In this document: piece after piece, positions 32,497 to 37,597 of the stretch
Layout of the letters: each line of letters begins with the position of its first letter
How positions within the stretch are numbered: the first letter of the stretch is position 1
Assembly: GCA_005893275.1 (NCBI GenBank)
Contig: VBOW01000023.1
Location: forward strand, 1-54,481
Source of the DNA: Candidatus Eisenbacteria bacterium
GTDB taxonomy: Bacteria; Eisenbacteria; RBG-16-71-46; SZUA-252
Direction: 5' to 3'
Length of the DNA: 54,481 nucleotides
The notes under the pieces: model-generated
The model's input: only the letters and a program-made list of their open reading frames with translations
The model's database searches: none
What the model was told of the DNA's origin: nothing
Translations under genes and position numbers: made by a program

Positions 32497-34400
32497 AGCC
32501 GTTTCGGCTTTCCTGGATTCGACCCTCGCTCGCCGCCAAGATCGCGGCGGCCACCTCGCTGCCCATTTTGGCGGTCATGGTGGCCGCGCTCCTCGCCGTG
32601 AACTTCCGGGTCGCCGCGCAGCAGGACCGTACCGTCACCGCCGATCTATCGCGGGCCGCCCTGTCCTTCGAGAAGCAAATGGTGCACCAGGGCGAGGAGC
32701 TGAAGCGTATCGGGATCGTCATCGCGCGCGATCCGAAGTTTTTCGCGATGCTCACCCTTCCCCGGACGGATCGCGGGACCGAGTACTTCCAGGCGACGCT
32801 CGCCGGCGTCGCCGGCGATTTCCAGCATGATACCGACGCCGCGATCTTCGACGTCACCGACGAGCACGGGGTCGTTCTGGTCCGGGGCGGGCGGCCCGAC
32901 GAGTACGGCATCAACATCTCCGGGTCGAAGCTCATTCGGGGAGCGCTCTCGGGACGTCCCGTCAGCGGCTACACGGTGGAGGGGCGGAACGCCTACCGGG
33001 TCGCGGTCGTTCCGATTGTGGTCGGGGGCGCTCTGGTGGGGACTCTGACGCTGGGACAAAGTCTCGACGCCGCGCTCGCGCAGGCCCTCAAGGAAACGAC
33101 GCGCAGCGATGTCGTGTTCACGGTGGACGGGGAAATCGCCTTGAGCACCGTTGCCGAATCCATGCTCCGGAGCATGCTGCAAAAGAAGATTCGCGAATGG
33201 CGGAACCCGGACTCGCGCCGCGAGGCGGGCACGACGCTCGAGGTGGTGCCGGTGCAGGGGGAGCGCTTTCTCGCGCTTCGCGGCGAGGTGGAGGGGCCCG
33301 AGGTCGGGGGCCACCTGGGTTACGTGCTCGTGCGCTCGCTGGACCAGGAAACGCTGGTGGTGAGGCGGATCGGAGGGGATCTCTTCCTCGCGGGAGCCAC
33401 GGTCGCGCTCCTGGCGCTTCTGCTCGGCCTCGGGGTCGCGGCCGGAATCACGCGGCCGATTCGACATCTCGTGGAGGCCGCCAACGAGATGCGGGTTGGG
33501 AACTACGACTTTCCGCTGAACGTCCGATCGCGCGATGAGATGGGGCGGCTCGCGGAGGATTTTGGAGCCATGCGCGAGACCCAGCGCCACGAGATCGAGC
33601 GGCTCGGCGAGATCGACCGGATGAAATCAAATTTCATCACCATCGCCTCCCACGAAATCATTACCCCCGTCACCATGATCCGCGCGTACGCGGATATCTT
33701 GGGGGACGGCTCGCTCGGGGAGGTCACGCCGCCCCAGCGCGAAGGTCTCTTCGCGATACGCCGGGGAACGGACACGCTGACCCGCTTGGCGCGCGACCTG
33801 ACCAACATGTCTTTGATCGACCGCAACCAGCTCCCCGCCCATTTCGCCCCCTGTGACATCGGCGAGGTTCTGGAGGAGGTCGCGGTGCAGGTCGCGCCCT
33901 TCGTGACGCAGCGAGATCAGCAGCTCTCGATCGGGGCGGAGGCGGGGCTCGTCCATCCCCGCATCGATCGCGACTATCTGAACCAGGCGATCCTGAACGT
34001 CGCCATGAACGCGGTGCGCTTTACGCCAGATGGGGGCACGATCGACCTGGGAGCCCGGAGGGTCGGGGACGCGGTGGAAATCGAGGTGAGCGACACGGGA
34101 ATCGGGATCGCCGAAGAGGACCAGGAGCGGATCTTCTCGAGGCTCGTTGAGCTCAAGGACATCAACCTCCACTCCTCGGGGCTGGCGGAGTTCAACTCGT
34201 CGGGCCTCGGTCTCGGCCTCTCGATCGCGCGGGGTATCGTGGAGGCCCACGGAGGGACGATCCGCGTGGAAAGCCACGTGGGCAAGGGAAGCACCTTTCG
34301 GATTCGGCTCCCCCTCGCCGGTCCACCCTCCTACCGTCCAGAAGAGACAACCGCTTCAGACAGCCGCAGTAAAGCCGACACGACACATTCAAGCAGCTGA
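32493..34400 (+). CDS. Membrane sensor histidine kinase with Cache-like sensor
   Basis: 635 residues. Two transmembrane segments (about 15-37 and 297-320) bracket an extracytoplasmic Cache-like domain (about 40-290). A HAMP linker (about 322-375) leads to a HisKA H-box, SHEIITPVTMIRAYADIL (H387), where the usual 'SHELRTPLT' has become 'SHEIITPVT'. The HATPase domain has NVAMNAVRFTPDGG (N-box), DTGIGI (G1) and GLGLGLSIARGI (G2). It should autophosphorylate in response to an envelope signal. No response regulator is next to it in this window, so its partner is elsewhere. It starts at ATG 32493, overlapping the cupredoxin stop as ATGA. The C-terminal tail past 615 is low-complexity. Confidence 0.92.
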   Translation: MKPFRLSWIRPSLAAKIAAATSLPILAVMVAALLAVNFRVAAQQDRTVTADLSRAALSFEKQMVHQGEELKRIGIVIARDPKFFAMLTLPRTDRGTEYFQATLAGVAGDFQHDTDAAIFDVTDEHGVVLVRGGRPDEYGINISGSKLIRGALSGRPVSGYTVEGRNAYRVAVVPIVVGGALVGTLTLGQSLDAALAQALKETTRSDVVFTVDGEIALSTVAESMLRSMLQKKIREWRNPDSRREAGTTLEVVPVQGERFLALRGEVEGPEVGGHLGYVLVRSLDQETLVVRRIGGDLFLAGATVALLALLLGLGVAAGITRPIRHLVEAANEMRVGNYDFPLNVRSRDEMGRLAEDFGAMRETQRHEIERLGEIDRMKSNFITIASHEIITPVTMIRAYADILGDGSLGEVTPPQREGLFAIRRGTDTLTRLARDLTNMSLIDRNQLPAHFAPCDIGEVLEEVAVQVAPFVTQRDQQLSIGAEAGLVHPRIDRDYLNQAILNVAMNAVRFTPDGGTIDLGARRVGDAVEIEVSDTGIGIAEEDQERIFSRLVELKDINLHSSGLAEFNSSGLGLGLSIARGIVEAHGGTIRVESHVGKGSTFRIRLPLAGPPSYRPEETTASDSRSKADTTHSSS

Positions 34401-34629
34401 TTTTAAATAGCTTATACCATTCCATTCAAATAGTCGTCATGTGTTGACTGCTTCGGCGTCCGCCCACGGGCCGGATCACGCATTTTGCCCGTCGGCCACT
34501 CCTCTGTAAGACAATCACTTACATGGTATCGGCGAGATGGAAGTGCAAATGGCACGACGGCTGCTCTTACATCCCGGCGTGGTCAGTACGGAAGGTGCGC
34601 AGCAAACCCCAAATCAAGTGAGGTGTGTG
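34401..34629 (+). other. Leader region of the DGKAGW peptide genes
   Basis: This spacer after the kinase is distinctly AT-richer than its surroundings around 34395-34440. It contains an inverted repeat TGTAAG-7-CTTACA (34505-34523) that could be an operator or leader hairpin. A short open frame, ATG 34523 to TGA 34621 (32 codons, encoding a basic Trp/Cys-containing peptide), ends 8 bp before the first DGKAGW gene. It has no clear ribosome-binding site, so I do not claim it as a gene. No confident promoter boxes were found. Confidence 0.5.
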
Positions 34630-34704
34630 ATGGCAGCTCTTCTCGCGATTCTCGTGATCCTGTCGTTGGCTGGCCCAGGTCCCGACGGTAAGGCTGGCTG
34701 GTAA
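34630..34704 (+). CDS. Tiny peptide ending PDGKAGW (copy 1)
   Basis: A 24-residue open frame: a hydrophobic N-terminus (MAALLAILVILSLAG) followed by PGPDGKAGW and a TAA stop. GAGGTG lies 6-11 bp upstream of the ATG. The first 15 residues look like a short transmembrane or signal-like segment without positive charges, so the C-terminal heptapeptide may be exposed or released. I do not recognise the family. The coding claim rests on the paralogue 75 bp downstream: across the last seven codons the two genes differ at three sites, all third-position and synonymous. Confidence 0.6.
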   Translation: MAALLAILVILSLAGPGPDGKAGW

Positions 34705-34778
34705 GCGGCAAGACGAAACCCGACACCGTTCCAAACCATCGACCCGAACCGGAAAATCCGAAAGGAGGTGAAAACGAA

Positions 34779-34856
34779 ATGACCGCACTCATCCTGACCG
34801 CGCTGATCGTCGCCTACGGCACGATTAATCCTCCGGACGGCAAGGCCGGCTGGTAA
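34779..34856 (+). CDS. Tiny peptide ending PDGKAGW (copy 2)
   Basis: A 25-residue open frame with a very strong ribosome-binding site (AAAGGAGGTG, 9-14 bp from the ATG). The sequence is MTALILTALIVAYGTINPP followed by DGKAGW and TAA. The hydrophobic N-terminus differs from copy 1, but PDGKAGW is identical and homology continues past the stop (TAAGCGG). The sequence looks designed around a conserved C-terminus carried by a variable hydrophobic leader, as in many exported or membrane-associated short peptides. A rho-independent terminator follows at 34922-34960, so the two genes form a compact unit upstream of lon. Confidence 0.65.
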   Translation: MTALILTALIVAYGTINPPDGKAGW

Positions 34857-34921
34857 GCGGTGAGTAGTTACGGCTTCGCGGGTAGGGCGAACCCCTGCGA
34901 GCCGGAGTAAGGCGGATCGAT

Positions 34922-34960
34922 GGGCCATCAGCAAGGCTTCCCCTGATGGCCCTTCGATTT
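34922..34960 (+). terminator. Rho-independent terminator after the peptide genes
   Basis: GGGCCATCAG (34922-34931) pairs perfectly with CTGATGGCCC (34943-34952) over an 11-nt loop, followed by TTCGATTTT. The stem is 10 bp and the T-tract is imperfect. It separates the peptide unit from lon. Confidence 0.8.
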
Positions 34961-35068
34961 TGGGCGAAATGGGGGCGGGGGGCGACTGGTCAGCGGCAGG
35001 GAAGCTGTGATACCGTTGGCTCTCGTACCCTCGCCCTCGTTCCGTCCTTGGCGGAAAGGATCGCCTGC

Positions 35069-37597
35069 ATGAGCAAGCGACCGATGTCCGAGATCGGCCG
35101 GATGCTCGAATGCGACGTGCCCCCAGTCATGCCGGTGCTCCCCCTCATGAGCACCGTCGTTTTCCCGCTTGGGGTTACCTCGATCCAGATCCGCCTCGAG
35201 CAGTCCAAAGCGCTTCTCCGCGACTACGCCGAGCCCGACGAGCTGATCGCGCTCGTGTACAGCCCAGCCAAGAGCGAGCGGGACCTTAAGCCCGAACAGC
35301 TAAGCAGGATAGGCCTCGCCGCCCGCGTGATCCGGATTCTGAACATGCCCAACGGCAACGTCCAGGTCACGCTCGAGGGGTTGCGACGCGTCGGCGTCGA
35401 GGAGATCCTCCGTGCCGAGCCCTACATCGAGGCCCGCGTCTCCTGTCCGGTCGAACCCACGGTAGACCCGGAGCGCGTGAACTCCCTCGCGACCCGCATC
35501 TTGCAGCTCCTCAAGACGATCTCGCAGCTCGACCATTCCTACCCCCCCGAGATGGACAACATCTTCAGCATGAACCTCGGGGATCCTGGCCTCTTTGCCG
35601 ACACGGTGGCTTCGATCGTACGGCTTCCCGTCGAGGCCAAGCAGCGCGTGATCGAAACGCTGGATATAGGCGAGCGCCTGGTCCTGCTGGCCGAAGCCCT
35701 CGATAGCGAGGTGGCCCGGCTCAGCGTGGCCGAGGACGTCGTGCGCCGCGCGAGCGCCCAGGTCGAGAAGAATCAGAGGGAATTTTTCCTCCGCCAGCAG
35801 CTCGCCGAGATCCGCCGCCAGCTCGGGGAAGAGGATCCCCAGGAAATGCTCGTCCGGCAGATCCTGGACCGCGCGGATACCTTGGGCCTGCCCCAGCACG
35901 TCCGCTCGGTCGTGTACGAAGAGACCAACCGGCTTCGCTACCTGGCGCCCACTTCACAGGAGTCCGGCGTGATCCGCAACTACATCGAGTGGCTGCTCGC
36001 CCTGCCTTGGGGCAAGCCGGTGCGCCATCCGATCGATCTGGACGAGGTCACGAAAAGGCTCAACGCGGAGCACTTCGGTTTGGACAAGGTGAAGGAGCGG
36101 ATTCTCGAGTACCTCGCTGTCCTCAAGCTCAAGAACGATCTCAGGGGTCCCATCCTCTGCTTCGCCGGCCCGCCCGGCACGGGCAAGACTTCGCTCGGGA
36201 GCTCCATCGCGCGCGCCATGGGGCGCGATTTCGTCAGGATAAGCGTGGGGGGCGTTCGCGACGAGGCGGAGATCCGCGGCCATCGCCGCACGTATATCGG
36301 CTCGCGGCCCGGGAAGATCATTCGAAGCCTGCGAGACGTTCACAGCTCCAATCCGGTGTTCATGATCGACGAGATCGACAAGCTCGGCCACGACTCTCAG
36401 GGGGATCCGGCCTCGGCGCTCCTCGAGGTGCTGGATCACGAGCAGAACGCGCATTTCGTGGACCATTACATCGAGATCCCGTTCGACCTCTCCGAGACGC
36501 TCTTCATCACCACGGCGAACGTGCTCGATTTCATTCCCGCGCCGCTGCTCGATCGGATGGAAGTGATCCAGATCCCCGGCTACATGGACGCGGAGAAGAT
36601 CGAGATCGCAAGACGCCACCTGATCCCGCGGGCGGCCCGCGAGCACGGGCTCCTCGAAGGAGACATCACGTTCGACGACGCCGCGATCACGAAGATGATT
36701 CGCGAGTACTCGCGGGAGGCCGGCGTCCGGCAGCTCGAGCGCGCGATCGAAACCGTGTGCCGCAAGTGCGCGCGGCAAAGGACCACCGGATACACCGGGC
36801 AATGGAGCTTCGGCGAGGCGGACATCGAAAAGCTTCTGGGCCCTCCCTACGTGCTTCCCGAAATGGCGGAGGGACACGCCGAGGTCGGGGTCGCGACGGG
36901 GCTCGCCTGGACCACGACCGGCGGGGACCTTCTTCTCATCGAGGCGCTCAAGATGCGCGGCGCGGGGCGCGTCATCGTCACGGGGCAGCTCGGGGACGTC
37001 ATGAAGGAATCGGTTCAGGCGGCGCACAGCTACGTCCGCGCCCGGGCGGAGCTTCTCGGGATCGACCCGGAGGTCTTCGATGATTTCGATCTTCACATCC
37101 ACTTTCCCGAGGGCGCGGTCCCGAAAGACGGTCCCTCCGCCGGGATCACGATCGTGATGGCGATCGCCTCGGCGCTCGCCGAGGCCCCGATCCGAAACGA
37201 CGTCGCGATGACGGGGGAAGTGACCCTCCGCGGGAAGGTGATCGCGGTGGGCGGCCTGAAGGAGAAGATCATGGCCGCGCACCGTGCCGGCATCAAGACC
37301 GTCGTGTTCCCCTCGGATAATCAGAAGGACGTTGTCGAGGTCCCCGAATCGGTGCGCTCGAGCATGACCCTGGTTCCGGTGAGCGCCGTCGATGAGGTCT
37401 TCCGCTACGCCTTCGTCGGGGTCGCGGAGCGAATCGCCGAGCTGGAGGCGCGCAAGGCCGCCGTCGATATCCGCCGGGCCCGGAAGCGGCGGGCGAAACG
37501 CGGAAACGCGCGCAGGAAAACCCGACGCCCCGAGCCAGCGCCGCGTCAGAAAGCAGCGCGGGAGCGCTCCCCCGGCGCTCCCAAGGGGAGACGGTAG
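35069..37597 (+). CDS. lon: ATP-dependent protease Lon
   Basis: Lon (La) unfolds and degrades misfolded and regulatory proteins. From ATG 35069 the product is 842 residues; the frame runs upstream to 34946 across the terminator, which is not credible. The N-terminal substrate-binding domain starts around PVLPLMSTVVFPLG. The AAA+ domain has Walker A GPPGTGKTS (about 367-375) and Walker B VFMIDEIDKL, with ARAMGRDFVRISVGGVRDEAEIRGHRRTY typical of Lon. The protease domain shows the serine S690 in PKDGPSAGIT and the lysine of GLKEK. A strongly basic Arg/Lys-rich tail (about 800-842) is not part of typical Lon. No CIRCE-type heat-shock operator was seen. Confidence 0.95.
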   Translation: MSKRPMSEIGRMLECDVPPVMPVLPLMSTVVFPLGVTSIQIRLEQSKALLRDYAEPDELIALVYSPAKSERDLKPEQLSRIGLAARVIRILNMPNGNVQVTLEGLRRVGVEEILRAEPYIEARVSCPVEPTVDPERVNSLATRILQLLKTISQLDHSYPPEMDNIFSMNLGDPGLFADTVASIVRLPVEAKQRVIETLDIGERLVLLAEALDSEVARLSVAEDVVRRASAQVEKNQREFFLRQQLAEIRRQLGEEDPQEMLVRQILDRADTLGLPQHVRSVVYEETNRLRYLAPTSQESGVIRNYIEWLLALPWGKPVRHPIDLDEVTKRLNAEHFGLDKVKERILEYLAVLKLKNDLRGPILCFAGPPGTGKTSLGSSIARAMGRDFVRISVGGVRDEAEIRGHRRTYIGSRPGKIIRSLRDVHSSNPVFMIDEIDKLGHDSQGDPASALLEVLDHEQNAHFVDHYIEIPFDLSETLFITTANVLDFIPAPLLDRMEVIQIPGYMDAEKIEIARRHLIPRAAREHGLLEGDITFDDAAITKMIREYSREAGVRQLERAIETVCRKCARQRTTGYTGQWSFGEADIEKLLGPPYVLPEMAEGHAEVGVATGLAWTTTGGDLLLIEALKMRGAGRVIVTGQLGDVMKESVQAAHSYVRARAELLGIDPEVFDDFDLHIHFPEGAVPKDGPSAGITIVMAIASALAEAPIRNDVAMTGEVTLRGKVIAVGGLKEKIMAAHRAGIKTVVFPSDNQKDVVEVPESVRSSMTLVPVSAVDEVFRYAFVGVAERIAELEARKAAVDIRRARKRRAKRGNARRKTRRPEPAPRQKAARERSPGAPKGRR

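Follow-up and report, generated by a model that had tools for sequence, protein, structure and literature searches.

The window, the whole 54,481-nucleotide stretch of Candidatus Eisenbacteria DNA that we analyzed, contains two tiny open reading frames, ORF1 and ORF2, between the genes for a sensor histidine kinase and lon. As the initial annotation had described, the two ORFs comprise 24 and 25 codons, are separated by 74 bp, and both encode the C-terminal residues PDGKAGW immediately before a stop codon. The features of the locus are:

32607–34400, + strand: gene for a dCache_3-HAMP-HisKA-HATPase sensor histidine kinase, the upstream neighbor (Pfam; homologue upstream of the pair in relatives)
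34550–34565, + strand: predicted sigma-54 (−24/−12) promoter, TGGCACGACGGCTGCT (kept in 7/7 family genomes checked)
34620–34625, + strand: ORF1 ribosome-binding site GAGGTG, weaker than that of ORF2 (sequence; kept in the family alignment)
34630–34704, + strand: ORF1, 24-aa peptide MAALLAILVILSLAGPGPDGKAGW, then stop (sequence; orthologues in G001-G007)
34687–34701, + strand: GKAGW tail codons of ORF1 (motif search, tail alignment)
34762–34769, + strand: ORF2 ribosome-binding site, AAGGAGGT (sequence; similar sites in relatives)
34779–34856, + strand: ORF2, 25-aa peptide MTALILTALIVAYGTINPPDGKAGW, then stop (sequence; orthologues in G001-G007)
34839–34853, + strand: GKAGW tail codons of ORF2 (motif search, tail alignment)
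34915–34962, + strand: stem-loop with T-run, probable intrinsic terminator before lon (sequence, fold, family conservation)
35069–37597, + strand: lon protease gene, the downstream neighbor, likely start 35069 (sequence reading; homologues in relatives)

The seven codons common to ORF1 and ORF2 differ at three sites (CCC/CCG, GGT/GGC, and GCT/GCC), all of them synonymous, and the strong ribosome-binding site claimed for ORF2 is present at 34762–34769. Beyond the stop, the DNA similarity continues for 4 bases (TAAGCGG) and then fades. When the 152 tiny window ORFs that have a ribosome site, weak or better, are compared (about 11,500 pairs), ORF1 and ORF2 are identical at 7/7 terminal residues, and all other pairs are identical at no more than 4/7. 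The DGKAGW codon pattern occurs twice in the window and once elsewhere in the genome, at the terminus of a larger protein. A longer, mechanically called ORF of 55 aa, which starts at 34537 and shares the frame of ORF1, was rejected as the gene, because it contains the sigma-54 site and is interrupted by stops in relatives. The stem-loop at 34915–34962, which is kept in most family genomes and was not reported by a simple terminator scan, probably closes a two-peptide transcript upstream of lon. Rfam gave no credible match for the window region or its relatives, and RNA folding of the window region detected no special structure in the family of the window's genome, f1 (z = −0.74). Additional genus-conserved blocks, GCATTTTGC and CTGTAAGACAA, lie 5' of the sigma-54 site, within 34400–34550, and are possible activator-binding sites.

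Conservation of the pair and of its C-terminal tail

The tandem pair is present upstream of lon in 8/9 f1 genomes, the ninth being 78% complete (all genomes analyzed are drafts of uncultured bacteria), and a histidine kinase gene lies on the other side of the pair in relatives where the contig extends far enough. Comparison with the same-genus genome G003 shows that codon positions 1 and 2 are kept, whereas third positions and spacer drift: for ORF1, 50/50 nucleotides are identical at positions 1 and 2 and 21/25 (84%) at position 3; for ORF2, 50/52 (96%) and 24/26 (92%), respectively; and for the spacer, 43/74 (58%). Across families, Gly, Lys/Arg, and Ala codons of the tiny ORFs are swapped freely for synonyms, and three stop codons are in use. 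We conclude from these codon patterns that both tiny ORFs are conserved genes and that selection acts on the peptide. Two of the outcomes that the initial annotation had named as refuting its idea, a lack of orthologues with the motif and equal conservation through third positions, do not hold for these genomes.

The initial annotation had proposed selection on a C-terminal heptapeptide behind a variable hydrophobic leader. The protein-level selection and the variable leader hold; the conserved unit, as judged by alignment of tails, is shorter, comprising the last five residues, G[KR]AGW. A search of 47 genomes of the class for GKAGW followed by a stop yields 46 matches, vs. 2 for the reversed control pattern; the corresponding search for GRAGW yields more matches but on a higher chance background; and a loose motif allowing one mismatch, applied to the window's own genome, performs no differently from its control. 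Nearly all proteins end at the Trp, and a few tails have extra residues after it. Outside the class (338 genomes), the GKAGW-stop matches that were opened are chance ORFs, and in many others the motif is followed by TGG instead of a stop. All relatives whose names were retrieved belong to Candidatus Eisenbacteria. A literature search for GKAGW returned one unrelated paper, and no described family with the tail was found, in line with the initial annotation.

Extending beyond the initial annotation, the results show that the tail is common to large lipoproteins and is linked to sigma-54 promoters and to MASE9 membrane proteins. The bearers, to judge from their sequences, are two unrelated kinds of protein: hydrophobic peptides of 16–28 aa, found in most Candidatus Eisenbacteria genomes, and about 33 proteins of 150–430 aa, most with a lipobox. 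The tiny peptides occur as tandem pairs in f1, as 16–18 aa forms in f8 (e.g., MDLLIEIVELFGKAGW), and in f7, f4, f10, and f3 (e.g., MFAAGGALIVGIMMIVAYGRAGW). At the locus upstream of MASE9-HD-GYP, f2, f6, and f11 have peptides with SRGHW, GGHAWW (three consecutive copies), SGGQSNWW, and FYRAGWGPGGP, which look like diverged relatives of the tail peptides. The GGHAWW copies terminate a 40-aa ORF (L142, G013:C8; MPKVIHSILAALLTYTISGGHAWWANGGHAWWMSGGHAWW) that, by analogy, resembles a multi-copy peptide precursor; the relative G019 has a single SGGQSNWW. At another locus (L234, G014:C52:98500-102500), three tandem GRAGW peptides precede an apparent ECF sigma factor gene, which is followed by a possible anti-sigma gene.

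Within single genomes, the two kinds of bearer can have the same variant of the tail: the rare GKGGW ends the tiny peptide of G023 as well as two distinct lipoproteins there, YRAGW is found on both kinds of bearer in G026, and GRAGW is found on both in G010. In G038 the tails of the two kinds mismatch (K vs. R). Because much of the K/R agreement follows phylogeny, only the rare variants provide independent support.

Promoters, lipoprotein domain, and candidate partner

A sigma-54-type −24/−12 element, TGGCACG-N4-CTGCT, is located 76–97 bp before ORF1 in 7/7 f1 genomes checked; the window's copy, at 34550 and 80 bp before ORF1, is the only site in the window, on either strand, that scores at least 11.9, and rpoN is present in the window's genome. 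In f7, f4, and f10, a sigma-54-like site also precedes most of the stand-alone tiny ORFs. For tail lipoproteins, the sigma-54 site beats shuffles at p<0.05 in 20/28 cases, and the score is at least 11.0 in 18/28, as compared to 3% of random windows from the same genomes, with the qualification that the tail lipoproteins are related to each other, so that combined p-values overstate independence. The scores indicate that stand-alone tiny genes and tail lipoproteins have the same predicted kind of promoter. The f8 tiny ORFs have no sigma-54 site beyond chance, except for a marginal site in G037 (p 0.04), and f8 copies therefore are probably transcribed with the upstream gene.

At f8 loci, a 13-bp long-range stem, GAGACCGRCATC/GATGYCGGTCTC, encloses the tiny ORF upstream of MASE9-HD-GYP, with the 5' arm also encoding the end of a 275-aa gene and the 3' arm preceding MASE9-HD-GYP. 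In the alignment, 90% of cells pair, vs. 32–42% when the arms are slid, the 90% being favored by the choice of the arms for complementarity; compensatory changes are found in 7/13 pairs. Two f8 loci in which no arm was clear were either omitted or re-registered. The stem extends to f3 and f6 (L124-L143 for the three families), and at f8, f3, and f6 loci CCCACC stands opposite GGTGGG, which overlaps the tiny ORF's ribosome site. The stem has no Rfam match, and nothing comparable was noticed at the f1 locus; its role may be to gate translation or to serve RNase processing. The ~275-aa gene (L095:4316-5143 and f8 orthologues) precedes the tiny ORF at every f8 locus read and has no Pfam or NCBIfam match.

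The tail lipoproteins align over a C-terminal domain that ends ...HFSxY...G[KR]AGW. In an AlphaFold model (pLDDT 79) this domain is a beta-sandwich, which Foldseek matches best to the GAIN domains of CD97 and BAI3 and to the ZU5 domain of ankyrin-G (E 0.004–0.14, probability 0.98–1.00; scores that are modest, the best E being 0.004). The domain thus models as ZU5/GAIN-like; the lipoproteins match no Pfam or NCBIfam family, and their sequence profile finds no solved relative in the PDB. The model places HFS between the last two strands, and only two tail lipoproteins, both of G040, lack an H-X-S/T (HF/S) site. ZU5, GPS, and Nup98 domains constitute one superfamily, found on bacterial surface proteins (PMC3482391); PIDD self-cleaves at HF/S and Nup98 at HFS (PMC3210808); and, according to two papers, the GPS motif is H-X-S/T and a tethered agonist is held in the GAIN domain (PMC13062082, PMC11697300). 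By analogy, the lipoprotein may self-cleave at HF/S, freeing the tail. HFS is also present in tail-less family members and so is a family feature, not proof of tail release.

The candidate partner is the MASE9 membrane domain. A MASE9-HD-GYP gene directly follows the tiny ORF in f8 and several other families; overall, MASE9 genes adjoin tiny ORFs in f2, f3, f6, f8, and f11, and, independently, MASE9-only genes adjoin ten tail lipoproteins at nine loci (f1, f8, and f10). With each genome having one or two MASE9 genes, we estimate chance adjacency at about 0.1% per gene. In f9, a single clade, 5/5 genomes lack MASE9 as well as tails. The association is incomplete: no tail protein is encoded near the MASE9-only genes of G005, G015, and G014:C20, the f1 tandem pair has no adjoining MASE9 gene, and no tiny ORF precedes the MASE9-HD-GYP genes of f1. 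G031 has a fusion of MASE9 to an apparent histidine kinase. A model of a MASE9-only protein (L089:1189-1923; pLDDT 86) resembles the ECF S-components TmRibU, BioY, and FolT (a modest match, best E 0.07). ECF S-components are ligand-binding membrane proteins, and the S-component-like fold therefore suggests a binding pocket in the MASE9 sensor domain. A literature search found no functional paper on MASE9. Exosortase was also considered as partner and was rejected, being absent in the tailed genomes G000, G001, G003, and G006 and present in tail-less f9. The neighbors of tail genes, read by eye and partly by Pfam, include histidine kinase, lon, MASE9-HD-GYP, sigma-54 activator, and TPR genes.

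A possible two-form ligand and its alternatives

The results point to an undescribed peptide signaling or tagging system in Candidatus Eisenbacteria. The reading that we favor, with a probability of roughly 0.4, is that the tail serves as an exported ligand that is free in the tiny peptides, is carried by the lipoproteins, and is read by a MASE9-type receptor. According to this proposal, for which we infer expression, export, cleavage, binding, and signal direction, G[KR]AGW would be a short recognition tail that acts as ligand outside the cytoplasm in two forms: the hydrophobic leader of the tiny peptides would bring the tail to the membrane or across it, and the ZU5/GAIN-like domain of the lipoproteins would present the tail beside its last strand and may release it by self-cleaving at HF/S. 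Sigma-54 promoters would drive expression of the stand-alone tiny genes and of the tail lipoproteins, and the MASE9 membrane domain, either by itself or joined to an HD-GYP or histidine-kinase output, would be the receptor. Against this proposal, the f8 peptides could not span a membrane, being too short, and, under the positive-inside rule, the Lys/Arg of the tail would favor a cytoplasmic tail. The proposal in its entirety, with one pentapeptide tethered on a GAIN/ZU5-like self-cleaving lipoprotein and free in micro-peptides, driven by sigma-54, sensed by S-component-like MASE9 receptors, and wired to c-di-GMP turnover and kinases, would be a prokaryotic counterpart of tethered-agonist signaling and is rather doubtful. 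A MASE9-sensed two-form ligand, if true, would be the first ligand for MASE9, a peptide-signaling system in an uncultured phylum, and possibly an instance in bacteria of tethered ligands of the GAIN/ZU5 type. Leaving the mechanism aside, there is a nearly phylum-wide family of micro-genes, below the usual gene-calling length, with a common tail, common promoters, and a testable partner.

The tail could instead be a sorting or anchoring tag of surface proteins, comparable to PEP-CTERM and belonging to a sigma-54 regulon, with the tiny peptides as minimal cargo or competitors and MASE9-only proteins as processing or export partners. A short C-terminal motif on exported proteins, the sigma-54 sites, and the membrane-protein genes that neighbor the lipoproteins all fit such a tag, and an RpoN-dependent PEP-CTERM gene, which we count in its favor, has been described (PMC9850573). 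We nevertheless consider a sorting tag unlikely: no transmembrane segment or basic cluster follows the motif, the motif is on two kinds of protein only, exosortase is missing from G000 with its five tails and is found in f9 genomes without tails, 16-aa peptides would be odd cargo, and the lipoproteins are already lipid-anchored. The small membrane regulator that the initial annotation had listed among its candidate functions is possible, if quite unlikely. Tiny peptides of this kind, comparable to CydX or MgrB, would reside in the membrane and dock by the tail on a membrane partner, with no secretion or intercellular signaling, consistent with their hydrophobic leaders, their nearly phylum-wide conservation, and their fixed position upstream of MASE9-HD-GYP in several families, but not with a leader that varies freely, with the presence of the same tail on lipoproteins, or with f8 peptides in which about 11 residues before the tail are too few for a membrane span.

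That the tail is a ribosome-arrest or leader-peptide signal regulating downstream genes in cis is suggested by the location of tiny ORFs upstream of regulators, by the f8 ORF within a covarying RNA stem, and by the Lys/Arg-Ala-Gly stretch, which recalls arrest motifs (the arrest end of SecM is RAGP). A cis-regulated downstream gene in the same transcript is possible in f8 but not in f1 or G031, where the stand-alone copies are followed by probable terminators (34915–34962 in the window). Since, in addition, the tail ends lipoproteins with nothing co-translated downstream, extra residues can come after it, and the leader is not kept as tunnel contacts would need, we regard arrest as very unlikely. 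Least credible is the toxin of the annotation's list: tiny, hydrophobic ORFs in tandem copies with strong ribosome sites would suit type I toxins, but the peptide is kept in most of the phylum, in a fixed gene order, its tail is common to lipoproteins, it has sigma-54 sites, and its conserved part is the tail, not the hydrophobic segment. Of the functions proposed in that list, a signaling peptide is the best reading.

Several known systems resemble the tail genes in part. Streptococcal SHP and ComS-XIP pheromones, which act with Rgg/ComR, are ~17–24 aa, have a hydrophobic leader and an active C-terminus, and are encoded near regulators. The tiny tail peptides likewise are short, with a hydrophobic leader, a conserved C-terminus, and genes near regulators, and export of SHP/ComS-type pheromones has been described (PMC7564271). 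In contrast to these pheromones, the tail core is nearly invariant over the phylum and is also on lipoproteins, and tail genes have sigma-54 sites and no Rgg/ComR noted beside them (by eye and partly by Pfam, with neighboring TPR genes unclassified). The tail lipoprotein resembles GAIN/GPS of adhesion GPCRs, PIDD ZU5, and Nup98 in having what models, on modest matches, as the same general fold, with H-F-S between the last two strands, and in having a candidate membrane receptor encoded beside it. It differs from these in being a bacterial lipoprotein separate from the membrane protein, in ending GKAGW, and in that its self-cleavage is putative and MASE9 is not a GPCR. The tails share with PEP-CTERM/exosortase systems a C-terminal motif family with sigma-54 promoters, and differ in the absence of a following transmembrane segment or basic residues and in an exosortase distribution that misfits. 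Bacterial ZU5 autopeptidase systems also have ZU5-superfamily domains on surface proteins, proposed to self-process (PMC3482391), but those are large toxins or adhesins with a typically N-terminal ZU5, whereas the tail lipoproteins are small, with a C-terminal domain and a fixed tail. At two loci (L241, G014:C41; L242, G020:C1), tiny GRAGW ORFs lie near genes for tail-less ZU5-like lipoproteins, an arrangement that looks as if tail and domain had been split.
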